NCBI RefSeq assembly: GCF_900107595.1
Contig: NZ_FNQF01000003.1
Coordinates: 124,001 to 188,000, forward strand
Direction: 5' to 3'
Length of the DNA: 64,000 nucleotides
Source of the DNA: Psychroflexus halocasei
GTDB lineage: Bacteria > Bacteroidota > Bacteroidia > Flavobacteriales > Flavobacteriaceae
Position 1 is the first letter of the stretch. Every line of letters starts with the position of its first letter. Made by a program: the position numbers and the translations under genes. Shown one piece after another: positions 6,762 through 30,450 of the stretch. Under the pieces are notes generated by a model. It did not search any database, was not told where the DNA came from, and saw only the letters and a program-made list of their open reading frames with translations.

Positions 6762-7769
6762 ATGAAAATTTTTGAACTGAACGGCTTAAAGTCAACTCTT
6801 GAAAAGAGTAAAAACATAGTTATTGTTGCTCATAAAAATCCCGATGGTGATGCTGTTGGCTCATCTTTAGGACTTAGCCTACTTCTAAAAGAAGTCTTTA
6901 ATAATAAAAATATTCAAGTCGTTTTGCCGAATAGATTTCCAGAATTTTTGGAGTGGTTACCAAAACAAGAACAAATTCTATTTTTTGATCAAAACAATAG
7001 TGAAGCAAAAAAATCGATTAATAATGCTGATCTCATTTTCACATTAGACTTTAATAGTTTTGGGAGAACTGGAGAAATGTCTCAAGAGCTGGAGCAATCA
7101 AAAGCAGATTTCGTGATGATTGATCATCACCAACAACCTGATGATTATGCTAAATTTTCTTTCAGTGACACCTCGATAGGTTCAACTTGCGAAATGATTT
7201 ATTTAACGATTCAGCATTTAGGTTATGAGAAATTTCTAACCAAAGAAGTTGGTGAGTGCATCTATACTGGTATTATGACAGATACAGGATCTTTCAAATT
7301 TTCGAGTACAAGTAGTCAAACGCATCGTATTATTGCAGATTTAATTGATCTTGGTGTCGAAAATTCTAAAATCCATCAAAACACTTTTGATAATAACAGT
7401 TTAAGTCGTTTGCAACTCATGGGAATTGCCATGAACAATTTAAAAGTTATCGCCGAAAAAAATGCAGCCTATATTACTTTATCTCAAGAGGAATTAGACT
7501 TAAATGATTTTAAAAAAGGTGATACTGAAGGTTTTGTCAATTATGCGCTTTCTCTAAAAGGAATTAATTTGGCAGTTATTTTTATTGAAAATAAATCTGA
7601 AGGAATTATCAAAATTTCTCTGAGATCCATCGGTGATATTGATGTAAATACACTTGCTAGAAAGTATTTTAACGGTGGTGGTCACCAAAATGCAGCGGGA
7701 GGAAGAAGTGAACTTTCCATGTCAGAAACAATCACTAAATTTGAAAAAATCTTAACTGATGAATTTTAA
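6762..7769 (+). CDS. nrnA: DHH-family phosphoesterase (nanoRNase / pAp phosphatase NrnA-like)
   Basis: A 335-residue cytoplasmic enzyme. The DHH domain shows HKNPDGDAVGSS (residues 24-35) and the signature DHH at 121-123. The C-terminal DHHA1 domain carries FNGGGHQNAAGG. Known NrnA proteins degrade 2-5 nt RNA fragments and the by-product 3'-phosphoadenosine 5'-phosphate. Length is normal. It heads an operon: the gldI ATG lies inside its last codons (11-base overlap), so translation is probably coupled. Confidence 0.9.
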   Translation: MKIFELNGLKSTLEKSKNIVIVAHKNPDGDAVGSSLGLSLLLKEVFNNKNIQVVLPNRFPEFLEWLPKQEQILFFDQNNSEAKKSINNADLIFTLDFNSFGRTGEMSQELEQSKADFVMIDHHQQPDDYAKFSFSDTSIGSTCEMIYLTIQHLGYEKFLTKEVGECIYTGIMTDTGSFKFSSTSSQTHRIIADLIDLGVENSKIHQNTFDNNSLSRLQLMGIAMNNLKVIAEKNAAYITLSQEELDLNDFKKGDTEGFVNYALSLKGINLAVIFIENKSEGIIKISLRSIGDIDVNTLARKYFNGGGHQNAAGGRSELSMSETITKFEKILTDEF

Positions 7770-17074: not shown

Positions 17075-17118
17075 TTGACAATTATCATTGCGATAGTGAT
17101 AAATTCTAAATATTTTTG
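17075..17118 (+). promoter_or_regulatory. CRP/FNR-type activator site and -7 box of hemN
   Basis: The palindrome TTGACAATTATCAT (17075-17088) resembles the FNR consensus TTGAT-N4-ATCAA. Its centre is 29.5 bases before the -7 box TATTTTTG (17111-17118), near -41.5 from the expected transcription start. The same arrangement recurs at the three cco promoters of this window. A TTG at 17088-17090, 20 bases before the -7 box, might also act as a -33 element. Confidence 0.72.
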
Positions 17119-17134
17119 AGATAAATACAATTTT

Positions 17135-18481
17135 ATGGAAAGTCTGATTTCTAAATATAATGTCCCAGGCCCAAGATACACGAGTTATCCAACGGTTCCT
17201 TATTGGGAAAACGATTTATTTACAACACAAGCTTGGATTGAAAGCTTAAAAGAACAAGACAGCAATGCTTTAAGTTTATACATTCATCTTCCGTTTTGCG
17301 AAAGTTTATGCACATTCTGTGCCTGCAACAAACGTATTACAAAGCGTCATGAGGTTGAAGATCCATATTTAAAAGCTGTTTTGAAAGAATGGAAAATGTA
17401 TTTAGAAGTTCTTAATGAAAAGCCACATATTAAAGAGATTCATTTAGGTGGAGGAACACCTACATTTTTCTCACCTGAAAATTTAGAATATCTTTTAAAA
17501 TCTATACTTGACACTGCTATTGTTACTGATGATATTGAATTTAGTTTTGAAGGTCACCCTAACAATACAACTGAAGATCACTTGTCAACTCTAAATAATC
17601 TTGGTTTTACAAGAGTCAGTTATGGTATTCAAGATTACAACCCAAAAGTTCAGATTGCTATTCACAGAATTCAAAGCTTTGAAAATGTCAAAAAGGCAAC
17701 TGAAAATGCCAGAAAATTAGGTTACAAATCAGTAGGTCACGATATTATTTTTGGTTTGCCTCTACAAACACTTGACGATGTCATTAACACCATCAATCAC
17801 ACTAAAAAATTGATGCCAGATCGTATTGCTTTTTACAGTTACGCACACGTGCCATGGACAAAGGGAAATGGACAACGCGGATTTAGTGAAGACGATTTAC
17901 CTACGCCAGAAGAAAAAAGAAAACAATACGAAACTGGCAAAAAAATGCTAGAAGAAATCGGATATATGGAAATTGGTATGGATCACTTTGCATTACCTGA
18001 CGATGACTTGAGCATAGCTTACAAAGAAGGTTATTTACATCGAAATTTTATGGGTTACACCATTACCAATACAAAAACAATGATTGGACTTGGTGTTTCA
18101 GCAATAAGTGACAGCTGGACAGCTTTTGCTCAAAATGAGAAAAAACTTGAAGATTATTATGCTAGATTAGAAGAAAATGTGCTGCCTGTGGCTAAAGGAC
18201 ATCTTTTAAATGAAGAAGACTTAATTATTCGTCAACAAGTTCTTAATTTAATGTGTAACTTTGAAACATCTTGGTCAAAAAAAGATGAAGAAATGATTAA
18301 TTTTGATCAAATCATAGAAGGATTAAAAGAATTTAAGAATGATGGTTTGTTAGAATATACTGATCACTCTGTGAAAGTTCACGATAAAGGTCGCGTTTTT
18401 ATCCGTAATATTTGCATGGCTTTTGACCTCAGGTTAAAACGTGCAAAGCCGCAAACCAAACTTTTCTCAATGACAATCTAA
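17135..18481 (+). CDS. hemN: Oxygen-independent coproporphyrinogen III oxidase
   Basis: A 448-residue radical-SAM enzyme that makes protoporphyrinogen IX without oxygen. The cluster motif CxxxCxxCxC is at C55, C59, C62 and C64 (FCESLCTFCAC). It is followed by the SAM-binding HLGGGTPTFFS and the HemN-type N-terminal RYTSYPTVPYW. Length fits HemN rather than the shorter HemW. Its promoter has a CRP/FNR-type site, consistent with induction at low oxygen. It is followed 32 bases later by a universal stress protein gene in the same direction. Confidence 0.95.
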   Translation: MESLISKYNVPGPRYTSYPTVPYWENDLFTTQAWIESLKEQDSNALSLYIHLPFCESLCTFCACNKRITKRHEVEDPYLKAVLKEWKMYLEVLNEKPHIKEIHLGGGTPTFFSPENLEYLLKSILDTAIVTDDIEFSFEGHPNNTTEDHLSTLNNLGFTRVSYGIQDYNPKVQIAIHRIQSFENVKKATENARKLGYKSVGHDIIFGLPLQTLDDVINTINHTKKLMPDRIAFYSYAHVPWTKGNGQRGFSEDDLPTPEEKRKQYETGKKMLEEIGYMEIGMDHFALPDDDLSIAYKEGYLHRNFMGYTITNTKTMIGLGVSAISDSWTAFAQNEKKLEDYYARLEENVLPVAKGHLLNEEDLIIRQQVLNLMCNFETSWSKKDEEMINFDQIIEGLKEFKNDGLLEYTDHSVKVHDKGRVFIRNICMAFDLRLKRAKPQTKLFSMTI

Positions 18482-18513
18482 AACAATTAATATAAACTAA
18501 AAACCCAAAGAAA

Positions 18514-19353
18514 ATGAAAAATATACTCGTACCAGTCGATTTTTCTCAACCCTCAGAAAATGCTCTTAAAGTTGCTGCAAAATTAGCAAAGAAAAATAAT
18601 GCTAAGATTCTATCTCTTCACGTTGTTGAACTTGCTGAATCTCTTTTTGGTAGTGGACAATTTAACGTGGATAACGAAGAAATTGTTTTCTTCATGAAAT
18701 TAGCAAAGAAAAAATTTGAAGAATTTTTAGATAAAGACTTTTTAAAAGGTGTTGACATCGCTCACGACATTGAAGTTGGTTCAACGACATTTGCTATAAA
18801 TGATATTGTTGAAAAACAAAATATTGATCTTATTGTGATGGGTTCTCAAGGTGTTAGCGGCTTAGAAGAAGTTATGATAGGTTCAAACACTGAAAAAGTT
18901 GTCAGACACTCTGAAGTTCCTGTTCTAGTTGTAAAAAATGATATCAAAGATTTTGACTTTAAAAAAGTCTTATTTGCAACTAACTTTGACCTTAAAAATG
19001 TAAAAGCTTACAACAAAGCAAAAGAATTTGCAGATAGCTTTGATGCTCAGATGAAACTTGTTTATATCAATATGCCTGGTAATCAGTTTTACAGTTCAGA
19101 TGAAATCAGAGACCACATGCGTAAATTTTTAAATGAAGTTGAAATTCCTTTAAACAATAAAAACGTAAAGATCTATAATGATTATTCGATTCAAGAAGGA
19201 GTTCTTAATGCTTCACGCTATGAAAAATTTGATTTGATTGCAATACCAACACATGGACGTAAAGGTTTAGCTCACTTCTTTAATGGCAGCATTGGTGAAG
19301 ATGTTGTTAATCACTCTGATTTACCAGTGATGACATTCAAAATTCAAAATTAA
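18514..19353 (+). CDS. Universal stress protein, two tandem UspA domains
   Basis: A 279-residue cytoplasmic protein. The first UspA domain (1-145) has ILVPVDFSQPSENALKVA and the ATP-loop-like GSQGVSGLEEVMIGSNTEKV. The second (150-279) has KVLFATNFDLKN and IPTHGRKGLAHFFNGSIGED. Fused double Usp proteins are common in Bacteroidota and are often induced by low oxygen or starvation. It lies 32 bases downstream of hemN without its own obvious promoter, so it probably shares the CRP/FNR-controlled transcript. Confidence 0.9.
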   Translation: MKNILVPVDFSQPSENALKVAAKLAKKNNAKILSLHVVELAESLFGSGQFNVDNEEIVFFMKLAKKKFEEFLDKDFLKGVDIAHDIEVGSTTFAINDIVEKQNIDLIVMGSQGVSGLEEVMIGSNTEKVVRHSEVPVLVVKNDIKDFDFKKVLFATNFDLKNVKAYNKAKEFADSFDAQMKLVYINMPGNQFYSSDEIRDHMRKFLNEVEIPLNNKNVKIYNDYSIQEGVLNASRYEKFDLIAIPTHGRKGLAHFFNGSIGEDVVNHSDLPVMTFKIQN

Positions 19354-19384
19354 AAAAACTATCAGATTTTGACAAAAATTATAA

Positions 19385-19417
19385 AAGGTCTCGTTTATTA
19401 AACGAGACCTTTTTTTG
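19385..19417. terminator. Bidirectional terminator between usp and trxA
   Basis: AAGGTCTCGTT/AACGAGACCTT with a four-base loop, followed by T7. It closes both converging operons. Confidence 0.92.
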
Positions 19418-19438
19418 TATCAATCTAAAATAGATAAA

Positions 19439-19735
19439 CTAAAACGATTGAATGATTTTGATGAGATCGTCTTTTTGAGGAACGCCACTTTGACGCCACT
19501 TTTGCTCTCCTTCTTTATAAATGATTAAGGTTGGTACACCTTTCACTTGAAACTTCTGAGCTAAACTTTGGTTTTTATCAACATCTATTTTAATAATCTT
19601 AACATCATCCCCTAGCTGCTCTTTCACTTCTTTTAAAATTGGCGATAAAGCTTTACATGGCCCACACCAATCCGCATAAAAATCGACAAGAACAGGAACT
19701 TCACTCTGTATTATAGCATTAAATTTCTGACTCAT
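19439..19735 (-). CDS. trxA: Thioredoxin
   Basis: A 98-residue cytoplasmic thioredoxin with the redox site WCGPCK (C24, C27) and the cis-proline loop VKGVPTLIIY. It has no signal peptide, so it is not the periplasmic cytochrome-biogenesis type. It is last in the run ccoH-tauE-CoA transferase-trxA (34-base gap to the transferase gene), which suggests co-expression with the cbb3 oxidase block. Whether this is the main housekeeping thioredoxin is unknown. Confidence 0.93.
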   Translation of the reverse strand: MSQKFNAIIQSEVPVLVDFYADWCGPCKALSPILKEVKEQLGDDVKIIKIDVDKNQSLAQKFQVKGVPTLIIYKEGEQKWRQSGVPQKDDLIKIIQSF

Positions 19736-19769
19736 ATTATTGATCTATTAAAGTGAATTTTAATTAAAA

Positions 19770-21041
19770 TTAATTTCCAAATCTTTCAAACATCGCTTTG
19801 TTTAAATCTTCTTGATGATCTGGATGCGCAATTGAAATCATTGCTTTTGCACGTTGTTTTAAACTTTTACCGTATAGATTAACAACACCGTATTCTGTTG
19901 CAACGTAGTGTACGTGAGCTCTTGTTGTCGTTACGCCAGCACCTTGATGCAAGTGAGGGACTATTTTAGTCAAACCTTTTGTTGTTGCAGCAGGCATGGC
20001 GATAATTGGCTTCCCTCCTTCTGAAAGTGATGCACCACGAATGAAATCCATTTGGCCTCCAACACCAGAAAACTGACGTGTACCAATAGTATCAGCACAT
20101 ATTTGCCCTGTTAAATCGATTTCAATAGCAGAATTAATCGCTGTTACTTTTGGGTTTTTTCTAATTAAAGCTGTGTCATTTGTATAAGAAGCTTCCTTAA
20201 AATGAACATAAGGATTTTCATCCACGTAATCGTAAAGCTTCTGAGATCCCATTGCAAAACAGGTTACAATTCTTCCTTGTTTCACACGTTTATGTTCACC
20301 AGTGATTATTCCTTTTTCAACTAATGGTAAAATTCCATCTGAAAACATTTCCGTATGAATACCCAAAGCTTTATGGTTATTTAAATTTGCCAATACAGCA
20401 TTTGGTATAGCACCTATTCCCATTTGAAGTGTTGCGCCATCTTCAACAAGTTCAGCAACATGTGCTCCAATTTTAGTTTCAATTTCACTTGGAGATGCTA
20501 ACTCGTGGACAAATAAAGATGTATCAACCTCAACTGCAGCAGTTATTTTGCTGACATGAATAATTCCGTCACCGTGTGATCTCGGAACATTTGGATTCAC
20601 TTGAGCGACAACTTTTTTTGCTTTTTCAATAGCTGAAAGTGTAATGTCAACAGAAGTTCCTAATGAACAATATCCATGTTTATCAGGAGGTGAAACTTGA
20701 ATAAAAGCAACATCAAGTGGTAAAATATCACGTTTAAAAAGTAAACTGATTTCACTCAAAAAAATCGGGATATAATCACCATGTTGAGAGTTGACTGCAT
20801 GTCTAACGTTTCCTCCTACAAAAAAACTATTGAGGTTAAAAGCACTCGAGTAAGGCTCTTGAGTATATTTCGCATTTCCGTCGGTATGCATCTGCACAAT
20901 TTCGACATTATTGAGTTCTTGGTATCTTTCTGATAAGGCATCGATCAACATCAAAGGCGTCATTGCTGCACCCTGGAAGAATACGCGATCACCACTATTG
21001 ACAATCGAGACAGCCTTTTCTTTACTTATATATTTCATCAT
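19770..21041 (-). CDS. Acetyl-CoA hydrolase / acetate (4-hydroxybutyrate) CoA-transferase family
   Basis: A 423-residue enzyme of the CoA-transferase class that uses a glutamate to carry CoA. Seen are QMGIGAIPNAVLANLNNHK, LGIHTEMFSDGILPLVE and GVGGQMDFIRGASLSEGGKP, all typical of acetyl-CoA hydrolase/4-hydroxybutyrate CoA-transferase proteins. It probably interconverts acyl-CoA and acetate with release of, or exchange for, CoA. It lies 12 bases after the TauE/SafE-like gene in the cco region. This hints at acetate metabolism under oxygen limitation. Two start ATGs are adjacent (21041, 21038). Confidence 0.85.
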   Translation of the reverse strand: MMKYISKEKAVSIVNSGDRVFFQGAAMTPLMLIDALSERYQELNNVEIVQMHTDGNAKYTQEPYSSAFNLNSFFVGGNVRHAVNSQHGDYIPIFLSEISLLFKRDILPLDVAFIQVSPPDKHGYCSLGTSVDITLSAIEKAKKVVAQVNPNVPRSHGDGIIHVSKITAAVEVDTSLFVHELASPSEIETKIGAHVAELVEDGATLQMGIGAIPNAVLANLNNHKALGIHTEMFSDGILPLVEKGIITGEHKRVKQGRIVTCFAMGSQKLYDYVDENPYVHFKEASYTNDTALIRKNPKVTAINSAIEIDLTGQICADTIGTRQFSGVGGQMDFIRGASLSEGGKPIIAMPAATTKGLTKIVPHLHQGAGVTTTRAHVHYVATEYGVVNLYGKSLKQRAKAMISIAHPDHQEDLNKAMFERFGN

Positions 21042-21053
21042 ATTTTATTTTTT

Positions 21054-21755
21054 TTAATAACATTCCATATTAGATTCAACCTTTTGCTCAACAGGTTTTG
21101 GCGAAACATAAGGAATTCCTAGTCCCATTCCTCTTAAAATAAAAAGAATTCCAATTAGACCGACAGCATAAGGAATTACTTTTTTTAAATTCAACTTGAG
21201 TACATTCTGTGTAAAAGATTTCAAATAAATCACAAAAGTCATCATCGGTAAAGTTCCTAAACCAAATAATGCCATATATAAAGCACCATTGACAATATCA
21301 CCGGTTGCCACTGAGCCAAAAACTGCCATATAAACTAGCCCGCATGGTAAAAACCCATTGAGAAAACCGATTGAGAAAAAGGTATCTAAACTTTTCTTTT
21401 TAAAGCTAGCGCCAAGTTGTGCTTTAATTTTGGTAATCGCACGATAAAAAGGTTGTGATACTTTAAATCTGCTTAAAAATTTTTGAGGAATCAACACAGA
21501 TAAAAGCATGATTGCCCCAATGGCAATCGATAAATGTTGTTGAAAACCGAAGCTTGCTATACTTTCTCCTAACAGGCCGAAAAGTAAGCCAATAATCATA
21601 TACGTTAAAATACGACCACTATTATAAAGTAATATTTGTAGGAATTTTAGGCTTTGATTGGTTCTGCTAACAGGCAGCATTAATGCGATTGGCCCGCACA
21701 TACCAACACAATGTAAACTTCCTAAAAACCCTAGTATGAAAGCGGACCAAAGCAT
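21054..21755 (-). CDS. Sulfite exporter TauE/SafE (UreH/DsbD-like) family membrane protein
   Basis: A 233-residue polytopic membrane protein with about six helices. The first helix contains GFLGSLHCVGMCGPIALMLP, the Cys-containing motif of the cytochrome/copper-linked TauE/SafE subgroup, and helix four has GFLNGFLPCGLVYMA. In cco clusters of Bacteroidota and epsilon-proteobacteria this protein is regularly next to ccoH and is thought to help copper supply or oxidase assembly. It overlaps ccoH by one base (TAATG-type junction), indicating tight coupling. Confidence 0.82.
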   Translation of the reverse strand: MLWSAFILGFLGSLHCVGMCGPIALMLPVSRTNQSLKFLQILLYNSGRILTYMIIGLLFGLLGESIASFGFQQHLSIAIGAIMLLSVLIPQKFLSRFKVSQPFYRAITKIKAQLGASFKKKSLDTFFSIGFLNGFLPCGLVYMAVFGSVATGDIVNGALYMALFGLGTLPMMTFVIYLKSFTQNVLKLNLKKVIPYAVGLIGILFILRGMGLGIPYVSPKPVEQKVESNMECY

Positions 21756-22201
21756 TAAAACAAGAATTTTTCAGCAACCATATAATCTTGACCTTCGTAT
21801 TGAAACTTCAAAGTAGCATCCCATCTTCCTTCTTCTAAAAGATCATTTGGTAATGTAAATTGTAAGCTTGAGAGATCTAAGTCAATCGTAAAATCTTGCT
21901 CTTTATCAATTGGGCGATACATAAATAATTCGCCAGATATTTTTTTATGATCAAAATTATCTGGAAAAGTTACTTTGAGTCCCAGATTTGTTTTTTCAAT
22001 TGTCACGCGTTCATCAAGAGCGAGTGCATTTTTCTTTTGGTCAATATCATTCTGAAGCGTCAAATCTTTTTCATAATAAGATTCGACAACAAGGTCATTA
22101 TTATACTTATCATCTGTCATCATCGTGATAACGAAATACATAATAAAGCTGATAAAAAGTACAAAAGCAATAACGATGGATTGACCCCAATTTAATTTCA
22201 T
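21755..22201 (-). CDS. ccoH: cbb3 oxidase assembly protein CcoH/FixH
   Basis: A 148-residue protein with one N-terminal transmembrane helix (SIVIAFVLFISFIMYFVITM) and a periplasmic beta-domain, as in FixH. VVESYYEKDLTLQNDIDQ is a common FixH stretch. It assists assembly or copper delivery of the cbb3 oxidase. It stands after a hairpin and an activator-type promoter of its own rather than directly after ccoG, unlike the usual ccoGHIS order. Confidence 0.88.
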   Translation of the reverse strand: MKLNWGQSIVIAFVLFISFIMYFVITMMTDDKYNNDLVVESYYEKDLTLQNDIDQKKNALALDERVTIEKTNLGLKVTFPDNFDHKKISGELFMYRPIDKEQDFTIDLDLSSLQFTLPNDLLEEGRWDATLKFQYEGQDYMVAEKFLF

Positions 22202-22222
22202 AATTATACATTTGAAGTGTTA

Positions 22223-22266
22223 CAAATTTCTAGTAAAATAGTCTTTTTTTCTATGATAGTTGTCAT
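22223..22266 (-). promoter_or_regulatory. CRP/FNR-type activator site and -7 box of ccoH
   Basis: On the minus strand the palindrome ATGACAACTATCAT (22253-22266) stands 29.5 bases, centre to box edge, from GAAATTTG (22223-22230). That box matches seven of eight positions of TAnnTTTG. The phase is identical to the hemN, ccoI and ccoS promoters. The expected start of transcription is near 22218, with a leader of about 17 nt. Confidence 0.6.
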
Positions 22267-22291
22267 GTAGTTGACAGATATTCTAAAAGAA

Positions 22292-22353
22292 ACAGCCTCA
22301 AAACTAAAGCTTATTAGTAAACAATAAAATAGCTTTGATAGTTTTGAGGCTGT
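22292..22353 (-). terminator. Large hairpin, probable terminator between ccoG and ccoH
   Basis: ACAGCCTCAAAACTAAAGCT (22292-22311) pairs with 22331-22353 over about 20 bp, with a three-base bulge and a 19-base loop. Read on the minus strand it is followed by a T-rich run (TTTCTTTT), so it may end the ccoS-to-ccoG transcript. The stem is longer than a usual terminator and could also be a dispersed palindromic repeat. No second copy is seen in this window. Confidence 0.65.
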
Positions 22354-22378
22354 CTCTGAATTTTGAAGTAATTGAATA

Positions 22379-23803
22379 TTATTTAAATAAACGAGGTCCC
22401 ATAAAATTGGCTTTCGCTTTATCAATAAGTTCGCCGTCGCTGTAAACACCGATTTCAACATCATTGAGTTCGCTGTCTATTAAATTAGAAGGAATTTCAA
22501 TAAAAAGCGTTCCTTCAGATAAGCCTTGTTTAGGTACGGAGAAGTTTGCTCCTTTTACAAGTTTTAACTGTCCATCTTCATGTGATAACAACTTAAACTC
22601 AACTTTATCAATATCATGAGTTGTTTTGTTAATCAGTTTATACGTGTAAACATTACTAATATTTCCGTTTTTCTGCGTTTCATAAGTCTGTCCAGGTAAT
22701 CGTAAAAGCTTCGCTTCAACACTTGTTCTAATAAATAGCATCCCGATAAGAATACCAACTAACACAGTTAAAACAACTGAATAAGCTTTCATTCTTGTAT
22801 TGAAAACAAAAGGCTTTTTCTCTTCGATATTCTCTTCACTTGCAAAACGAATTAATCCTCTTGGGTAGTCAACTCTGTCCATAATTTCATCACAAGCATC
22901 TATACAAGCAGTACAATTGACGCACTCGAGTTGTGTTCCATTTCGGATATCAATGCCTGTTGGACAAACGTGAACACATTGATTACAATCAATACAATCG
23001 CCGTGGCCTAAAGCTTCACGATCTTCGTTTTTTCTAAACTTTTTACGACCATTTTCAGCTTCTCCGCGCTTGTGGTCATAAGCAACAACAATTGTTTTCT
23101 TGTCAAGCAATACACCTTGCAAACGTCCATATGGACAAGCAATAATACAGACTTGCTCTCTGAACCATGCAAACACAAAATAAAAAACTGCCGTAAAAAT
23201 AAGTAAAGGAATAAATGTTCCTAGATTTTCTAAAGGTCCTTCTTGAACGTATTTAAATAACTCATCACTTGAAATTAAATAAGCTAAAAATACATTAGCG
23301 ATTAAAAAAGAAATGAAAGCGAAGATTGTCCATTTTGTCCCTTTTTTGATAATCTTTTCTTTCTTCCATGGCATTCTGCTAAGTCGCATTTGCTTTCCTC
23401 TATCGCCTTCAATTACATATTCGATACGTCTAAAAACCATTTCCATAAAAATGGTTTGTGGACATATCCAACCACAAAAAACACGACCAAAAGCAACTGT
23501 GAAGAAGGCAATAAAAATAATGCCTATAATCATAGAAATTACAAAAAGATAAAAATCTTGAGGCCAAAAAGGAAATCCAAAAATATTGAACTTTCTTTCT
23601 AAAATATTAAATAGTAAAAATTGGTTTCCATTAATCTTGATAAATGGAGATACAAACAAAAAGGTAAGCAAAAAGTAGCTTACCCATTTTCTGTAATCAT
23701 ACAAGGCACCCGATGGTTTCTTAGGATAGACCCATTCTCTTTTTCCATCTTCGGTTAAGGTGCCTATCGTATCTCTAAACTCTTCATTATTATCGGTACT
23801 CAT
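22379..23803 (-). CDS. ccoG: cbb3 oxidase accessory protein CcoG (FixG), 4Fe-4S membrane reductase
   Basis: A 474-residue membrane ferredoxin-like protein. Five or so helices surround CGWICPQTIFMEM. Two 4Fe-4S motifs follow (CIDCNQCVHVCPTGIDIRNG and CVNCTACIDACDEIM), and a C-terminal periplasmic immunoglobulin-like domain (about 365-474) completes the protein. CcoG is known to reduce Cu2+ to Cu+ for cbb3 assembly. It begins 11 bases after ccoP. Confidence 0.94.
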   Translation of the reverse strand: MSTDNNEEFRDTIGTLTEDGKREWVYPKKPSGALYDYRKWVSYFLLTFLFVSPFIKINGNQFLLFNILERKFNIFGFPFWPQDFYLFVISMIIGIIFIAFFTVAFGRVFCGWICPQTIFMEMVFRRIEYVIEGDRGKQMRLSRMPWKKEKIIKKGTKWTIFAFISFLIANVFLAYLISSDELFKYVQEGPLENLGTFIPLLIFTAVFYFVFAWFREQVCIIACPYGRLQGVLLDKKTIVVAYDHKRGEAENGRKKFRKNEDREALGHGDCIDCNQCVHVCPTGIDIRNGTQLECVNCTACIDACDEIMDRVDYPRGLIRFASEENIEEKKPFVFNTRMKAYSVVLTVLVGILIGMLFIRTSVEAKLLRLPGQTYETQKNGNISNVYTYKLINKTTHDIDKVEFKLLSHEDGQLKLVKGANFSVPKQGLSEGTLFIEIPSNLIDSELNDVEIGVYSDGELIDKAKANFMGPRLFK

Positions 23804-23814
23804 TGTTCTTTATT

Positions 23815-24705
23815 TTAATTATCATCTGGAGTCCAAATGATGTCTCCTTCTGCCTCTTTAGGCTCGGCAGGAGTTGTTCCGTAAAGGCTAATTACATAAC
23901 TAGCAGTTTTTTGCATTTCTGATGGTGATAAATCATTTTTCCAGGCAACCATCCCTTTTCCTGATCGCCCACCTTCACTAATTGTTTTATATACATTTTG
24001 AATGCCTCCACCTAAAATCCAGTGATCATCAGTTAGATTTGGACCAATACCTCCACCACCATCAGCTTTATGACAAGCAACACAGTTAGCATTATAAATA
24101 GTTTTCCCTTCGTTTAAATCACTTTCTTCAGCGAGAAGTGTGACTGTCTCAAAGTTAATGAGGTCTTTAGCTGTTCGCTTGTATTCTTCAATTGCAGCTT
24201 CAGCCTCAGCAACTTCCATCAAGTACTCTTCTTCTTGTGTGTAGTCATTATAGACATGAAATCTTACCATATAAACTGCAGCAAAAACAATACTTGCATA
24301 AAAACTGTATAGCCACCATGGCGGGAGCTTATTATCAAGCTCTGTAATTCCATCATACACGTGATCTAGCTCAATTTCACCTTCTTGCTCAATAGATTTA
24401 GATCTCGTCATTTTACTTAAAATAGACTGAATCTTTTGTTCAAATTTGGTGCTTTTGTGTGCTTCTAATTCGTGGTAGCGCGCCTTCTTTTCTTCAGACA
24501 AAGATTTGTATAAAGTTGAGTGAAGTGCTGCCACAGAGGCTTCAATAGCGACTGCAAAAAGTAAAACAATACCCAAGAATAACCAAGTTTTCGGATATTC
24601 AACAACAGCCCAATGCCCGGGATCTGTTTCTAGTAAGAATTCAACACCTAGAAAGGCAATTCCTACCAAAACGATAATTCTTAAAATAGATGCTGTGTTT
24701 CTCAT
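23815..24705 (-). CDS. ccoP: cbb3 oxidase subunit III CcoP, single-haem form
   Basis: A 296-residue membrane cytochrome c. Two N-terminal hydrophobic segments (about 9-25 and 41-60) and a third (about 132-148) precede one cytochrome c domain with C208-x-x-C211-H212 (NCVACHKADG) and a Met ligand candidate in GKGMVAW. Proteobacterial CcoP has two CxxCH motifs, whereas only one is visible here, a form common in Bacteroidota. It overlaps ccoQ by four bases. Confidence 0.92.
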   Translation of the reverse strand: MRNTASILRIIVLVGIAFLGVEFLLETDPGHWAVVEYPKTWLFLGIVLLFAVAIEASVAALHSTLYKSLSEEKKARYHELEAHKSTKFEQKIQSILSKMTRSKSIEQEGEIELDHVYDGITELDNKLPPWWLYSFYASIVFAAVYMVRFHVYNDYTQEEEYLMEVAEAEAAIEEYKRTAKDLINFETVTLLAEESDLNEGKTIYNANCVACHKADGGGGIGPNLTDDHWILGGGIQNVYKTISEGGRSGKGMVAWKNDLSPSEMQKTASYVISLYGTTPAEPKEAEGDIIWTPDDN

Positions 24706-24887
24706 GATTCGTCTTCGTTTTTAAGGTCTAATGGCAACTCACTTAGCGCCTTTATGTTTTTCTTATTATATGTCATTACCCACCAAAATAATCCTACAAA
24801 AAATGTAAAAAAGATGAGCAGAGCAATGATGGGATAGAGTTCTATCCCATTTATTGTTTCTAGATTTTCTTTAATAAATTTCAACAT
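24702..24887 (-). CDS. ccoQ: cbb3 oxidase small subunit CcoQ
   Basis: A 61-residue protein with a single transmembrane helix (IIALLIFFTFFVGLFWWVMT) followed by a short Lys/Asn-rich cytoplasmic tail (YNKKNIKALSELPL), the CcoQ pattern. It stabilises the oxidase in other bacteria. Its position between ccoNO and ccoP, with an ATGA overlap to ccoP, supports the call more than its sequence does. Confidence 0.85.
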   Translation of the reverse strand: MLKFIKENLETINGIELYPIIALLIFFTFFVGLFWWVMTYNKKNIKALSELPLDLKNEDES

Positions 24888-24898
24888 AGTTATGATTT

Positions 24899-27094
24899 TT
24901 AATTAGAAACTGTTTCTTCTGAATCATCAACTTTTATATCTGTTCCTAATCGTTGTAAATAAGCAATCAATGCGACAATTTCACGGTCTTTCATTTCTAC
25001 AAATTCTTCTCCGTTAGCAGCAGCTCTTTCTTTACTTGCCTCATAACTCTTAACGAAGTCAGGATCTGTATAGAGGTTCTCAACAATTTCAGTTCCTTGT
25101 TCTGTCATTTGCTCTTGTGCATTTTCGATTTCTTCAAGTGAATAAGGGACACCTAAACTAACCATTGCACGCATTTTTCTTTCAGTAATTGACTTGTCAA
25201 GCTCACTTTCAATGATCCATTGATAACTTGGCATTATTGAACCTGATGAGGTACTTTGAGGATTATACATGTGGTTGAAGTGCCACGTATCAGAGTACTT
25301 CCCACCAATACGATGCAAATCTGGTCCTGTACGCTTACTTCCCCACAAGAACGGGTGATCGTAAACATATTCACCACCTTTTGAATATTCTCCATAGCGT
25401 TCAACCTCTGACCTAAAAGGTCTGACCTGTTGAGAGTGACAGCTCACACATCCTTCACGGATGTAGAGATCTCGTCCTTCTAGTTCCAGTGGAGAATATG
25501 GTTTGACACTGGTAATTGTAGGGACGTTCGAGTCAATCATTAAGGTTGGTACAATTTGTACAATACCACCAATCAAAATAGCGATAGTTGCTAAGATTGC
25601 TAATTGAATTGGTTTTCTTTCTAACCAAGTATGGAAACCTTCTCCTGCTAAACGACCTTTAGAAATTTTCTTTAATGCTGGAGCTTCAGCTAGTTCATCT
25701 TCAACTTTAGATCCAGCTTTAGCAGTTCTATAAATATTATAAATCATAATGAAAACACCAATGATATAAAGCGAACCACCAATAGCTCTCATCGCATACA
25801 TTGGCATAATCTCTGTCACAGTTTCTAAGAAGTTGCCGTAAACCAAGGTTCCATCAGGATTAAATTGCTTCCACATTGAAGCTTGTACAAATCCAGCAAC
25901 ATAAAGCGGTAATGCATAAAGAACAATACCTAAAGTCCCTACCCAGAAGTGTGCATTTGCTAATCCTGTAGAGTGTAATTTTGTTTTAAATAACCTTGGC
26001 GCTAACCAGTAAATCATACCAAATGCTAAGAAACCATTCCAAGCAAGCGCACCAACGTGAACGTGAGCAATAATCCAGTCTGTAAAGTGTGCAATCGCGT
26101 TAACGTTTTTCAGAGATAACATCGGCCCTTCAAAAGTTGCCATTCCATAACCTGTAATAGCAACAACCATAAATTTCAAAACAGGATCAGTTCGTACTTT
26201 ATCCCAAGCACCACGTAAAGTCAAAAGACCGTTAATCATACCTCCCCAAGATGGCATTAAAAGCATAATAGAGAATGTTGTTCCTAAACTCTGAGCCCAA
26301 TCCGGTAAAGCGGAATACAATAAGTGGTGAGGTCCAGCCCAGATATAAATAAATATCAATGACCAGAAGTGAATAATCGATAGTTTGTAAGAATAAACAG
26401 GTCTATTCGCTGCTTTAGGAACGAAGTAATACATTAAACCTAAAAACGGTGTTGTTAAGAAGAACGCCACAGCGTTATGTCCGTACCACCATTGCACTAA
26501 AGCATCCTGAACACCAGCATAAACTGAGTAACTTTTAAACAAGCTAACAGGCAACTCTAAGTTATTAAAAATATGGAGGACTGCAACAGTAACAAAAGTT
26601 GCTAAATAGAACCAAATTGCAACGTAAAAGTGTCTTTGGCGACGCTTAATCATTGTACCGATTAAGTTCCAACCAAAAGCAACCCATACAATAGTAATTG
26701 CAATATCAATAGGCCATTCTAGTTCAGCGTATTCTTTTGTTGAAGTAAAACCCATGGGAAGCGTAATCGCCGCTGCAACAATAATTAGCTGCCACCCCCA
26801 GAAGTTAAGCTTACTCAAAGCATCACTATACATTCTAGCTTTAAGAAGACGTTGAGTTGAGTAATAAACTCCTGCAAAAATTGCGTTCCCTACAAATGCA
26901 AAAATAACTGCATTTGTATGAAGCGGTCTTAAACGACCAAAACTCAACCATGAAATACCATCAGTTAAGTTTGGGAATAAAAACAGGAGAGCTAATAATA
27001 AGCCGACTGCCATACCTACAACACCCCAAAATATTGTAGCATAAAGGAAATTTTTTACGATTTTATTATCGTAATGAAACTGTTCTAATTCCAT
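24899..27094 (-). CDS. ccoNO: cbb3 oxidase fused subunits I and II (CcoN-CcoO)
   Basis: A 731-residue fusion. Residues 1 to about 480 are CcoN, the 12-helix haem-copper catalytic subunit, with low-spin haem His in HTNAVIFAFVGN, HNAVAFFLTTP, GPHHLLYSALPDW and HVHVGALAWNG. After a further helix near 490-515, residues 520-715 are CcoO, a membrane mono-haem cytochrome c with C549-V-S-C552-H553 in GCVSCHSQQVRPF. The enzyme reduces O2 to water with high affinity and pumps protons. The fusion is standard in Bacteroidota. Confidence 0.95.
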   Translation of the reverse strand: MELEQFHYDNKIVKNFLYATIFWGVVGMAVGLLLALLFLFPNLTDGISWLSFGRLRPLHTNAVIFAFVGNAIFAGVYYSTQRLLKARMYSDALSKLNFWGWQLIIVAAAITLPMGFTSTKEYAELEWPIDIAITIVWVAFGWNLIGTMIKRRQRHFYVAIWFYLATFVTVAVLHIFNNLELPVSLFKSYSVYAGVQDALVQWWYGHNAVAFFLTTPFLGLMYYFVPKAANRPVYSYKLSIIHFWSLIFIYIWAGPHHLLYSALPDWAQSLGTTFSIMLLMPSWGGMINGLLTLRGAWDKVRTDPVLKFMVVAITGYGMATFEGPMLSLKNVNAIAHFTDWIIAHVHVGALAWNGFLAFGMIYWLAPRLFKTKLHSTGLANAHFWVGTLGIVLYALPLYVAGFVQASMWKQFNPDGTLVYGNFLETVTEIMPMYAMRAIGGSLYIIGVFIMIYNIYRTAKAGSKVEDELAEAPALKKISKGRLAGEGFHTWLERKPIQLAILATIAILIGGIVQIVPTLMIDSNVPTITSVKPYSPLELEGRDLYIREGCVSCHSQQVRPFRSEVERYGEYSKGGEYVYDHPFLWGSKRTGPDLHRIGGKYSDTWHFNHMYNPQSTSSGSIMPSYQWIIESELDKSITERKMRAMVSLGVPYSLEEIENAQEQMTEQGTEIVENLYTDPDFVKSYEASKERAAANGEEFVEMKDREIVALIAYLQRLGTDIKVDDSEETVSN

Positions 27095-27096
27095 AG

Positions 27097-27321
27097 TTAT
27101 ACTTGTTTGTGTTTATGATTTGATTGACTTGATTTTTGTTTTTTTTCAACTTTTTCTTCAGATTTCTTTTCCTCGTCAACGAGCTCGTCGTCAAAAAGCA
27201 TTCTTACTGAAGGCGTGTAAGCATCATCATATTGACCTTTTTTTACAGATAACACGAAAATCACAAAAAATACGATTGCGATAGTGATACTGATAGCAAG
27301 AAGTCCGTAAATGGCACTCAT
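27097..27321 (-). CDS. ccoS: cbb3 oxidase assembly protein CcoS
   Basis: A 74-residue protein with one N-terminal helix (LLAISITIAIVFFVIFVLSV). It continues with KKGQYDDAYTPSVRMLFDDE, matching the CcoS signature K-x-GQ-[YF]-DD...P..R-[IM]-L. A Lys/Glu/Ser-rich tail follows. CcoS is needed to insert cofactors into cbb3 oxidase. It ends two bases before ccoNO and has its own CRP/FNR-type promoter. Confidence 0.92.
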   Translation of the reverse strand: MSAIYGLLAISITIAIVFFVIFVLSVKKGQYDDAYTPSVRMLFDDELVDEEKKSEEKVEKKQKSSQSNHKHKQV

Positions 27322-27337
27322 TTTTAAATAATTTTTT

Positions 27338-27381
27338 CAAAAATAATATGATAAAAAACATGATAAAATGATTTTCATCAT
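27338..27381 (-). promoter_or_regulatory. CRP/FNR-type activator site and -7 box of the ccoS-NO-Q-P-G operon
   Basis: On the minus strand the palindrome ATGATGAAAATCAT (27368-27381) has its centre 29.5 bases from a perfect -7 box TATTTTTG (27338-27345). There is no TTG at -33, as expected for a promoter that depends on an activator at -41.5. It sits in the 65-base gap between ccoI and ccoS. Confidence 0.75.
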
Positions 27382-27386
27382 ATTTT

Positions 27387-29780
27387 TTAATCTTTAGATT
27401 TTAATGTTTTGCGACTCACATAAGAAGTTGCAAATGTCGTAAAAGCAACGATACTAATCGAACTTAAAGGCATTAAAATTGCTGCGATGACGGGTCTCAA
27501 TAATCCTGAAACAGCAAAATAAATCCCAATTGCGTTATAAAAAAATGAAAACACAAAACTTAATTTGATGATAAAGATACCTTTTTTGGAAACCTTAAGA
27601 AAATTATTAAAATTCTTAAATTGATCCGCACTCATAATCGCATCACAAGCGGGTGAAAAAACATTTACATTTTCGGAAATTGCAATTCCAACATCTGCTT
27701 GTTTTAACGCTCCTGCATCGTTCAATCCATCTCCTAACATACAAACCTGTTTCCCTTCATCTTGCAACTTTTCAACAAAACGCATTTTTGAATCTGGTTT
27801 TTGATTAAATTTCATCTGTATCGTTTTAGGTAATAACTTTGACAAGTATTGTTTTTCGCCAGAGTTATCTCCTGAAAGAATCACAAGTTTATGCTCCTGA
27901 TCTAACTCTTCAAACAACTCAACTAGACCTTCTCTATAAACGGTATCAAAAATAAATTTTCCTAAAACTTTATTATTCTTTTGAACAAAAACAGAAGTCT
28001 CTGTCGGGTTGATCATTTCTTTTTCAGCTTCAACAAAACTTGCAGAACCTAATTTATAAGCATTTGATTGCGATTTTGTTGTAATACCTTGACCTAAATG
28101 CTCATCAAATTTATCGATTTCTTCAGTGGGTGTAGAATTCAAAAATGAATACAATTGACGACTTAACGGGTGGTTTGAATTCCTGAAAGAATCTTTCAAA
28201 ATACCTAAATCTTTTTCGGTTAGAGCTTCACCTTCATAAACTATATGACTTTTTTGGCTCGAACTAATGGTTCCCGTTTTATCAAATACAAAAGTATCAA
28301 TTGCAGCAAACTGCTCTAAACTGATAATATTTTTCATATAGAAACCATGCTGCCCAAATATCCTTAATAAATTCCCTAAAGTGAATGGAGTTGCCAACGC
28401 AATTGCACATGGACATGCAATAATTAAAACTGCTGTAAATACATTAAGCGCCATGTTAGGCTGATAAAACAACCAAAAAATCAAAGCTGTTGTTGCGATA
28501 CTCAAGACGGTAATAGTAAACCTTTTACTAATTTTATCGATTAAGGTTTGAAAACGCGGATTGTAATCTTTTTGAAAAACATCATTACTCCAAAGTTGAG
28601 TCAAATAACTTTGTTCTACTGATTTCTCTGCAACAATCTCTATAGCTTGTCCTTTAAGTTTTCCGCCTGCAAATAATTTATCACCAGATTTTTTTTCAAT
28701 TGGATCAGCTTCACCTGTCACAAAACTATAATCGACTTCACAGGTTTCTGTCATCAAAATAGAATCAACTGGGATTAGCTCTTCGTTTCTAATCAATAAA
28801 CGATCGCCTTCTTTTATTTTATAAACTTCAATATTCTCTTCAGTTTTATCTGTATTGATTTTTGTAATTGCTATTGGGAAATAAGATTTATAGTCGCGTT
28901 CAAATGACAAATAATTGTATGTTTTCTGCTGAACAAATTTTCCTAATAACAAGAAAAAAACCAAACCTGTTAAGCTATCGAAAAAACCAGAACCAAAATT
29001 AAAAGCAACGTCTACAAAACTCCTTAAAAAAAGCACTGTGATTCCGAGTGCAATTGGCACGTCGATATTCAGCATTTTGGAACGCAATCCTTTATAAGCC
29101 GAAATGTAATAATCGCGTCCTGCATAAAAAACAACAGGCAAACTAAAAGCGAACATCAACCAGCGAAAAAGAAATTTATATTGATCTAACCAATATTCTG
29201 AGACTTCAAAATACTCAGGAAATGAAAGAAACATCACGTTTCCAAAAGCAAAACCTGCAACGGCAATTTTATAGATTAAAGAATTATCAGTTGCCGTTTC
29301 TTTTTTATCGATATTATCTAAGCTAATATAGGGCTCGTAACCTATTGAAGTCAAAAGTTCAACAACTTCCTTTAGACTTGTGCCATCATTTTTGTAAGTA
29401 ATATTAATCGTCTTTTTAGGGAAGTTGACCTGAGATTGACGAATATGTGGATTCAATTTATTTAGATTTTCAAGAATCCAAATACATGAACTACAATGAA
29501 TATGTGGAATGTATAAACTGATAACCTCTGTTGAGCCATCAGAAAAATCAAGTAATTTAACCTTGATTTCTTCTTGATCTATAAAATCAAATTTACCTTT
29601 TATATCTTCTGGTGTTACTCCAGGCGCAGAAGCTAAATCGTAATAACAATCGAGATCGTTCTCTGAAAAAATCTCATAAACTGTTTTACAACCCTGACAA
29701 CAGAAATGTTTATCATCGTGTAAAATATCGAACTGTGAACAAGCATCTCCACAATGATAACAAGATTCTACTTTAGACAT
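27387..29780 (-). CDS. ccoI: Copper-translocating P1B-type ATPase CcoI/FixI
   Basis: A 797-residue membrane pump supplying copper for cbb3 assembly. The N-terminus is a Cys-rich metal-binding segment (CYHCGDACSQF, HFCCQGCKTVYEIF), followed by a heavy-metal domain with HIHCSSCIW. The P-type core shows CPCAIALATP (near 455), DKTGTIS (near 497) and GDGLNDAGALK. The N-terminal Cys-cluster plus HMA arrangement is typical of FixI. It heads the cco region. Confidence 0.93.
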   Translation of the reverse strand: MSKVESCYHCGDACSQFDILHDDKHFCCQGCKTVYEIFSENDLDCYYDLASAPGVTPEDIKGKFDFIDQEEIKVKLLDFSDGSTEVISLYIPHIHCSSCIWILENLNKLNPHIRQSQVNFPKKTINITYKNDGTSLKEVVELLTSIGYEPYISLDNIDKKETATDNSLIYKIAVAGFAFGNVMFLSFPEYFEVSEYWLDQYKFLFRWLMFAFSLPVVFYAGRDYYISAYKGLRSKMLNIDVPIALGITVLFLRSFVDVAFNFGSGFFDSLTGLVFFLLLGKFVQQKTYNYLSFERDYKSYFPIAITKINTDKTEENIEVYKIKEGDRLLIRNEELIPVDSILMTETCEVDYSFVTGEADPIEKKSGDKLFAGGKLKGQAIEIVAEKSVEQSYLTQLWSNDVFQKDYNPRFQTLIDKISKRFTITVLSIATTALIFWLFYQPNMALNVFTAVLIIACPCAIALATPFTLGNLLRIFGQHGFYMKNIISLEQFAAIDTFVFDKTGTISSSQKSHIVYEGEALTEKDLGILKDSFRNSNHPLSRQLYSFLNSTPTEEIDKFDEHLGQGITTKSQSNAYKLGSASFVEAEKEMINPTETSVFVQKNNKVLGKFIFDTVYREGLVELFEELDQEHKLVILSGDNSGEKQYLSKLLPKTIQMKFNQKPDSKMRFVEKLQDEGKQVCMLGDGLNDAGALKQADVGIAISENVNVFSPACDAIMSADQFKNFNNFLKVSKKGIFIIKLSFVFSFFYNAIGIYFAVSGLLRPVIAAILMPLSSISIVAFTTFATSYVSRKTLKSKD

Positions 29781-29796
29781 TAAATAAAATTTACAG

Positions 29797-29840
29797 CAAA
29801 ATTAAAAGTTTTACAAGATACATAAAATGATAATCATCAG
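29797..29840 (-). promoter_or_regulatory. CRP/FNR-type activator site and -7 box of ccoI
   Basis: On the minus strand CTGATGATTATCAT (29827-29840) has its centre 29.5 bases upstream of the -7 box TAATTTTG (29797-29804). The core TGAT-N4-ATCA is perfect. Transcription should start near 29792, 12 bases before the ccoI ATG. Confidence 0.75.
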
Positions 29841-29867
29841 CTATGATTCTATCTTTTTTAATAATTA

Positions 29868-29875
29868 TATATTTG
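29868..29875 (+). promoter_or_regulatory. -7 box of the ExbD-like gene
   Basis: TATATTTG matches TAnnTTTG, 14 bases before the ATG at 29890. The CRP/FNR-type palindrome at 29827-29840 is centred 34.5 bases upstream of this box, five bases out of phase with its position at ccoI. It may therefore act differently on this gene, or not at all. Confidence 0.5.
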
Positions 29876-29889
29876 TCAAAACCACAATC

Positions 29890-30450
29890 ATGAAAAAAAC
29901 AGTAATCCTTCTCCTATTTGCATTTTTTCACCAAACTTATCAAGCTCAAGAATGGTATGATGATCAATGTGATATCGAAACCAAAATTGATCTTAAAACT
30001 TATAAAAAAGAGAATGTCAGAAATATTTTGACTATTATAATTGATCAAGAAAACACTTTGATCCTCAATGATAAACCTTACCCTCAGATGTCTGAAGTGA
30101 AGTTTAAGGAATATATTTTAGACTTTATCACAAATCCTGAAAACAAGAAAACATCTGCTGAATCACCTAAGTCAGCAATCATCGCTATTTCTTCTTTTGG
30201 TGAAAAAAACAATATGCAGATGATTGAGAATTATGTTCGTGAAGTTTACCTCTATCTTTGGAATCAAAAAGCCGTTCAAGAATATGACAAACAATGGCCA
30301 AATTTAAATTGTAAGAAGAGAGAGAAAATCATAAAAAAATATTTCCCATACAACCTTTACAAAATCGAAAACGAATCTGATACTTCAAAAAAGAAAGAAA
30401 ATATGTTTCTTTCAACACCAACTTTTAAAGGTGACGTTAATGACAACTAA
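29890..30450 (+). CDS. Secreted protein resembling the periplasmic domain of flavobacterial ExbD, without a membrane anchor
   Basis: A 186-residue protein. Signal peptide MKKTVILLLFAFFHQTYQAQ is probably cut before EW. The rest recalls the C-terminal half of Bacteroidota ExbD. It has a strand pair (NILTIIIDQENTLILND), a helix ending FKEYILDFITNPEN, a second strand (SAIIAISSFG), and a helix with YVREVYLYLWNQKAVQEY ending YFPYNLYKIEN. Those ExbD stretches are remembered, not searched. The transmembrane anchor with its proton-conducting Asp is absent, so it cannot power TonB by itself. The frame continues upstream to 29827, but that part covers the promoter, so the ATG at 29890 is chosen. Its stop overlaps the next gene's stop. 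Confidence 0.6.
   Translation: MKKTVILLLFAFFHQTYQAQEWYDDQCDIETKIDLKTYKKENVRNILTIIIDQENTLILNDKPYPQMSEVKFKEYILDFITNPENKKTSAESPKSAIIAISSFGEKNNMQMIENYVREVYLYLWNQKAVQEYDKQWPNLNCKKREKIIKKYFPYNLYKIENESDTSKKKENMFLSTPTFKGDVNDN

Follow-up and report, generated by a model that had tools for sequence, protein, structure and literature searches.

A CRP/FNR-type palindrome at a fixed distance from the Bacteroidota promoter box precedes cbb3 oxidase, hemN and denitrification genes in Psychroflexus halocasei

The window analysed here, a 64,000-nt stretch of the genome of Psychroflexus halocasei (Flavobacteriaceae; contig NZ_FNQF01000003.1, positions 124,001 to 188,000), contains genes for a cbb3-type cytochrome oxidase and for the oxygen-independent coproporphyrinogen III oxidase HemN, and carries upstream of them a CRP/FNR-type palindrome placed at one exact distance from the Bacteroidota promoter box TAnnTTTG. 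The same composite precedes respiratory and denitrification genes elsewhere in the genome, is conserved among relatives, and co-occurs with and is linked to genes for CRP/FNR-type regulators. The sites are probably class II CRP/FNR activator sites on a Bacteroidota promoter, and their likeliest reader in P. halocasei is a protein in which a two-component receiver is fused to a CRP-type module.

The composite and its spacing in P. halocasei

The palindrome core was defined as TGAYN4RTCA, and the composite as TGAYN4RTCAT followed by 22 nt and TAnnTTTG, which corresponds to a gap of 23 counted from the core end. A sequence-only reading of the window had reported palindromes upstream of hemN, ccoS, ccoI and ccoH, all at an identical distance from a TAnnTTTG-type box, and had seen the pattern in no other intergenic gap. 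All four palindromes are present where they had been placed (Table 1). The hemN, ccoS and ccoI sites match the composite exactly, with 29.5 nt from the core centre to the near box edge; at ccoH the spacing is retained but the box is off consensus, the octamer being GAAATTTG, so that this site is one mismatch away from the composite. When up to one mismatch was allowed, the window as a whole yielded these four sites and no others, and each alternative spacing between 8 and 40 gave 0-2 matches; at this stringency, the pattern is confined to the four gaps, as the sequence-only reading had stated. Counted by itself, the core is only mildly enriched across the window (13 occurrences versus 6.2 expected; 1 of 100 shuffles as high), and core-only counting was set aside as too weak a signal.

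In the complete 2.67-Mb genome, a search for core, N8-38 and box found 45 pairs, of which 14 have gap 23, 3 gap 22 and 2 gap 24; the 30 gaps other than 23 average 1.03 (Poisson P ~7e-12). It is this spacing that carries the signal. The 14 sites lie outside reading frames of at least 100 aa, except that four frames overlap with sites at their mechanically called starts, and the site at C28:112173 overlaps a mechanical 84-aa frame on the opposite strand; of the 7 matches with a gap of 20-22 or 24-26, 3 are located deep within long frames. An apparent start codon follows the box within 31 nt at 12 of the 14 sites, the exceptions being the ccoN-like gene (83 nt) and the dcu gene (262 nt), and the C26:392721 site would have a zero leader if the start codon shown is right.

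The proposed microaerobic regulon holds in so far as cbb3 oxidase parts and hemN are among the targets, but the set is wider and extends to denitrification, C4-dicarboxylate uptake and hibernation (Table 1). The CcoN-like target has a long N-terminal extension and a CcoO/P-like partner (L107:2975-9185). On the nosZ side, the composite lies in an intergenic region common with a divergent gene for an Rrf2 regulator, which is followed by one for a ScdA_N/hemerythrin protein (L112:5943-7268).

Table 1. Genes and promoter elements in the window (plain positions) and regulator genes and targets elsewhere in the same genome (G000; positions with contig labels)
Feature	Position	Strand	Remarks
hemN promoter palindrome TGACAATTATCA(T)	17076..17087	+	perfect match, gap 23; predicted centre -41.5
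hemN -7 box TATTTTTG	17111..17118	+	
hemN, oxygen-independent coproporphyrinogen III oxidase	17135..18481	+	TIGR00538, 450 bits (cut-off 325)
148-aa open reading frame (ORF), ccoH of the sequence-only reading	21755..22201	-	named by position
ccoH off-consensus box GAAATTTG	22223..22230	-	same spacing, not TAnnTTTG; TA 2 nt further upstream
palindrome TGACAACTATCA(T) 5' of ccoH	22254..22265	-	composite with one mismatch, in the box
ccoG	22379..23803	-	TIGR02745, above cut-off
ccoP	23815..24705	-	TIGR00782, below curated cut-off
ccoNO fusion, cbb3 oxidase subunits I/II, 3' of ccoS	24899..27094	-	PRK14485, 1341 bits, above cut-off
ccoS, then ccoNO	27097..27321	-	TIGR00847, above cut-off
ccoS -7 box TATTTTTG	27338..27345	-	
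ccoS-ccoNO promoter palindrome TGATGAAAATCA(T)	27369..27380	-	perfect composite
ccoI-type P-type ATPase	27387..29780	-	above TIGR01494 (P-type ATPase) cut-off, below heavy-metal subfamily cut-offs
ccoI -7 box TAATTTTG	29797..29804	-	
ccoI promoter palindrome TGATGATTATCA(T)	29828..29839	-	perfect composite
receiver-CRP fusion	C20:60987-62039		Response_reg, cNMP_binding, HTH_Crp_2
L022, 198-aa CRP protein	C26:392822-393415		cNMP-binding and HTH_Crp_2 domains
target: Dcu-type C4-dicarboxylate transporter, then fumarase/aspartase-family lyase	C20:20757		
target: Usp-like protein	C20:62046		just below cut-off
target: distant CcoN-like/CcoO-P-like pair	C20:285142		well below family cut-offs
target: small protein without family match, then copper-type TonB receptor	C26:392721		receptor below cut-off
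target: 94-aa ORF, then globin-like ORF	C26:393438		neither with Pfam match
target: Thioredoxin_9	C28:85992		
target: small ORF	C28:112173		
target: OmpW-like	C30:54907		below cut-off
target: HPF-type hibernation factor	C30:64884		
target: cytochrome c, then Sec-dependent nosZ	C30:165942		
target: copper nitrite reductase nirK	C32:47265		

Two of the gene names in the window follow from position, that of ccoI and that of ccoH, the latter because the 148-aa ORF has no NCBIfam match; the label 'globin-like' for the ORF at C26:393438 is presumed from its look. For the ORF called mechanically at window positions 29827-30450, the start at 29827 would make it overlap the ccoI palindrome, and a signal-peptide-like start at 29890 is more likely.

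Conservation, promoter position and other spacings

The best 80 CcoNO loci of other genomes (GTDB, many of them metagenome-assembled), fetched with CcoNO as the query, contain 83 core and box matches at gap 23; the remaining gaps between 0 and 80 average 1.15, and a control core gave no match at gap 23. Most of these sites (73 of 83) lie directly 5' of ccoS (40), hemN (17), usp (7), a gene for an FNR-like protein described below (5) or ccoI (4), while 10 were assigned to none of these; at ccoS, the median distance from box to start is 20 nt. When the 450 nt 5' of ccoNO were taken from 79 of the loci (L054 being too short), 56 regions had the composite at gap 23 (40 perfect, 16 with one mismatch), and other gaps from 8 to 37 reached at most one mismatch in at most 4 loci. 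Most of these sites lie 226-301 nt from ccoNO, that is, before ccoS, and those of L090, L096 and L103 at 64-78 nt. Across 198 genomes of the phylum, the exact composite was found 201 times versus 5 times for a reversed-pattern control; by taxon (sums added by hand from the per-genome counts), all 19 genomes of the family have it (122 matches), as do both from the rest of the order (14), 20 of 28 from the rest of the class (42) and 15 of 149 others (23). Two findings that the sequence-only reading had named as damaging to it, a lack of conservation in cco and hemN promoters and a motif equally common elsewhere, did not appear: the cco and hemN promoters of relatives keep the same spacing, and the pattern is far rarer at other spacings in P. 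halocasei as in its relatives.

A logo was built from 82 of the 83 gap-23 sites (one was dropped because its flank ran off the locus), with the core and box letters fixed by the search. Besides TGAY and RTCA, it has A or C at -48, a T at -35 that is kept by 75 of the 82 sites, and a T-tract from -33 to -30, each position of which is T in 60-64 of them. These positions are numbered from the transcription start through Flavobacterium psychrophilum, in which the sigma-A box TAnnTTTG has been mapped at -12 to -5 and cbb3 increases when oxygen is limiting (PMC9723704). On this basis, the core centre would fall at -41.5, the class II position of FNR; the value is exact relative to the box, and the start site is taken from the published box position. 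The sites have the TGA-N6-TCA core of FNR/CRP class II sites, and differ from the full FNR consensus TTGAT-N4-ATCAA in the outer T/A, the outer bases being mostly A (53/82) and T (75/82).

Further peaks in the best 80 loci, at gaps 9-10 (17 matches), 34 (4) and 45-46 (25), suggest a positional code. At gap 9-10, 15 of the 17 matches point by position into the gene for the FNR-like protein (L060 at 9757 and L072 do not). Among 30 upstream regions of this gene, 28 have a palindrome, at gap 9 or 10 in 13, gap 23 in 3 and gap 34 in 3. A palindrome at gap 9-10 should block the promoter, which suggests self-repression of the FNR-like gene. In L027-L069, these palindromes 9-10 nt before the -7 box of the gene lie mostly at ~7200-7300 on the minus strand, and in L064 and L069 its upstream region also has a palindrome 22-24 nt before the box of the divergent gene. 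Gaps 34 and 45 are 11 and 22 nt further upstream than gap 23, about one and two helical turns. Many of the gap-45 cases come from distant Bacteroidota and are accompanied at gap 23 by a further palindrome, which is often degenerate; such pairs, with 22 bp between gaps 45 and 23, were seen in L081, L085, L089 and L096-L103, mostly 5' of ccoNO.

Candidate readers and competing explanations

Three CRP-type genes were found in the P. halocasei genome, those of the receiver-CRP fusion, L022 and L024. Many relatives have in addition a 225-aa FNR-like protein: 43 of the best 80 CcoNO loci contain a match at 1e-20 (fusions included), which in 33 of the 43 is divergent from ccoI and within 600 nt of it. 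Cysteines 4, 7, 53 and 106 of this protein are invariant in 8 aligned sequences. It is absent from the P. halocasei genome, where the best match is the fusion (8e-24), followed by L022, and an N-terminal CxxC was found in neither of these two. The helix residues E(S/T).IR are common to the FNR-like proteins, L022 and those fusions caught by the pattern (22/26).

Directly upstream of the fusion gene lies the gene for a FixL-like PAS histidine kinase. When the kinase PAS domain was searched without its first part, FixL was the top solved structure (6e-12), and a manual alignment count found the histidine aligned with that of FixL kept in 21 of the 22 kinases beside the closest fusions. This histidine ligates heme in FixL, and is also usual in other PAS domains. 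Since PAS domains of the kinase's type are not all heme proteins, oxygen sensing by the kinase is a guess. The P. halocasei kinase frame has no ATG before the PAS domain and may start at GTG. Kinase, fusion, class II composite and a usp-like gene make up a conserved cassette (L106:5742-8896 and L116-L138), the parts of which vary by locus.

Among 60 genomes of the family, the FNR-like protein is present in 36 (E below 1e-60) and the full fusion in 25 (a 26th, G198, matches by receivers only and was left out). The mean number of composites per genome is 1.25 in those with neither regulator (n=12), 4.87 with only the FNR-like protein (23), 7.83 with only the fusion (12) and 11.0 with both (13), and a linear fit of site number over the 60 genomes gives +3.3 for the FNR-like protein and +6.4 for the fusion, versus -0.38 +/- 1.11 for L022. 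Two further comparisons are less exposed to confounding by lifestyle and ancestry. Of 34 fusion loci, the 26 scoring at least 312 bits have the composite (at most one mismatch) directly 3' of the fusion gene in 25 (17 perfect), followed by a usp-like gene in 23 and with the kinase upstream in 22, whereas other gaps account for at most 2 loci. The composite (at most one mismatch) is also retained upstream of ccoNO in 10 of 11 further genomes that encode the fusion but no FNR-like protein, and at other gaps at most 1 of the 13 loci examined reaches this match. Co-occurrence and linkage favour the fusion as the putative reader of the sites, among them those at ccoS and ccoI. The sequence-only reading had called for a CRP/FNR-family protein; such genes do exist and go with the sites, and the probable one is a receiver-CRP fusion beside a FixL-like kinase.

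Several observations weigh against this interpretation. By at least 2 mismatches, 23 of the 79 ccoNO upstream regions miss the spacing rule; these come mostly from distant Bacteroidota but include the nearer L040, L062, L069, L070, L072 and L092, of which L069, L070, L072 and L092 have the site at gap 22 or 24 instead of 23. The T-tract is weak in P. halocasei, each of its positions being T in 7-9 of the 14 sites. CcoNO is missing as well from 10 of the 12 genomes that have neither regulator, so that lifestyle and ancestry confound the comparison of regulators with site numbers. One genome, G243, has 8 sites and CcoNO with neither regulator found (it is 82% complete and 6% contaminated), and another, G222, has the FNR-like protein and no perfect site, and also lacks CcoNO. 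None of the 8 lower-scoring fusion loci has the composite (at most one mismatch), and the 26/8 split was made after the scores had been seen. Among the fusion-only genomes, G235 lacks a ccoS site. Finally, L022, which is flanked by two sites, carries the E..IR helix residues too, so these residues do not set the fusion apart.

It is L022 that offers the closest alternative, as the protein that would read the class II sites of P. halocasei instead: it has cNMP-binding and HTH_Crp_2 domains and E..IR in its helix, and its gene lies between two perfect composites. This is nonetheless unlikely, because L022 orthologues (E up to 1.2e-46) are present in 15 of the 60 genomes and add nothing to the site counts after the other two regulators have been taken into account, and because G218 and G251 keep the composite upstream of ccoNO without an L022 orthologue (G235 lacks both); as the main regulator, L022 is disfavoured, showing no association with site number. 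At its locus (L108:7009-10779), a copper-type TonB receptor gene lies beyond one composite and a small ORF and the globin-like ORF beyond the other. Quite improbable is a further possibility, that the palindrome is a repressor operator and its constant spacing a result of promoter overlap and not of activation. The inner part of the site does adjoin the -33 region, and from the promoter-blocking gap of 9 or 10 at the FNR-like gene (13 of 30 upstream regions) it follows that the same protein can probably repress. A repressor, however, should tolerate many positions, whereas one spacing dominates here, that of a class II activator, accompanied by lesser peaks 11 and 22 nt upstream of it, and the regulators linked to the sites are CRP/FNR-type. 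Position therefore speaks against an operator as the general role of the sites, except at the promoter of the FNR-like gene itself. That the sites are chance matches in A+T-rich DNA combined with common ancestry of a few promoters is scarcely credible: in the window, the core by itself exceeds expectation only about twofold, and the 80 loci are mutually related, but the 14-to-1 spacing peak arises within one genome, 5' of genes from many families, and the reversed-pattern control stays far below the composite across the phylum.

Proposed mechanism and relation to known systems

With activation of class II sites as the preferred explanation, we infer the following scheme, including its start sites, its binding, activation and phosphorylation steps and its oxygen signal. 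A CRP/FNR-family dimer centred at -41.5 would bind the palindrome and work with the Bacteroidota housekeeping sigma factor, while RNA polymerase would read TAnnTTTG at -12 to -5, in many relatives with the T-tract at -33 to -30 between them. In P. halocasei, the most likely activator would be the receiver-CRP fusion, which the PAS histidine kinase of the adjacent upstream gene would phosphorylate and which would unite a FixJ receiver and a FixK DNA-binding module in a single protein. In many relatives, the cysteine-bearing FNR-like protein, often encoded divergently from ccoI, would recognise these sites too, by itself or jointly with the fusion. The resulting regulon would be one of low-oxygen respiration and denitrification. 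For the Flavobacteriaceae as a whole, a reading that appears rather likely is that of one fixed low-oxygen promoter code under which the sensor has been exchanged (FNR-like protein, FixL-like kinase with FixJ-FixK fusion, or both), with additive regulon size.

The predicted arrangement resembles that of E. coli FNR, for which the sections cited give a consensus TTGATN4ATCAA (PMC4886647) and place the site at -41.5 +/-4 in 19 of the 23 activated promoters whose start is known (PMC3688515): both have a TGAT-N4-ATCA core, here too with a predicted centre of -41.5, and low-oxygen targets (PMC3688515, PMC4886647), and both regulons include a Dcu transporter and an OmpW-type protein. In these sources, however, the E. 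coli sites at dcuB (-132.5) and ompW (-81.5, and a repressing site at -126.5) are not class II. The outer bases here are A...T, not T...A, the polymerase box is TAnnTTTG, and, in contrast to the +/-4 nt of E. coli, one spacing dominates, with 14 sites versus 3 and 2 at one nt less and one nt more. The P. halocasei genome moreover lacks a cysteine-bearing FNR. The FNR-like protein of relatives can be aligned with the Fe-S protein FNR of Aliivibrio fischeri (5cvr; 1e-29) from position 4 to position 226 of 226. Three of its four invariant cysteines, the CxxC pair and a later one, match FNR cysteines, which we take to be cluster ligands, whereas one further FNR cysteine has no counterpart and the conserved cysteine at position 53 lies elsewhere.

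The rhizobial FixL-FixJ-FixK system has a comparable set of parts, namely a PAS kinase (the P. halocasei kinase being nearest FixL among solved structures), a receiver and a CRP-type module, as well as cbb3 oxidase and denitrification targets and, in the FixK2 box, TTGA-N6-TCAA-like half sites (PMC9104804). In the sections cited, FixJ activates a separate fixK gene, whereas here the receiver and CRP modules form one protein. The two systems also belong to different phyla and promoter types, and PAS heme binding is here only a candidate property. FixJ has a LuxR-type output. A separate FixJ of this kind is absent from the cassette, whose receiver is fused to cNMP_binding and HTH_Crp_2 domains, the genome not having been searched for one.

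Within the Bacteroidota, the box sequence and its position agree with the Flavobacterium sigma-A promoter TAnnTTTG (PMC9723704), a paper whose main text contains 0 occurrences of Crp or palindrom. The MalR-type CRP proteins of Flavobacteriales in an anammox community are likewise CRP/FNR proteins of this phylum; in the sections cited, they are predicted to sense carbon and no evidence was found for denitrification control, whereas here sites precede nirK and the nosZ operon (PMC8510549). Neither the spacing rule nor a receiver-CRP fusion as cbb3 regulator was found in the titles and abstract openings returned by searches of the open-access PMC literature. The mechanism is a familiar one, while its exact architecture, its breadth in the family and the exchange of regulators under one code were not found in the open-access PMC literature searched.

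The promoter of Bacteroidota is unusual, and the action of activators on it is little described in the literature examined. With its exact and testable architecture, the composite allows low-oxygen and denitrification genes of Flavobacteriaceae, Sec-dependent nosZ among them, to be predicted from sequence alone. It would also provide a natural case in which the sensor is exchanged while the DNA code stays fixed, and an example of a two-component receiver fused directly to a CRP-type activator.

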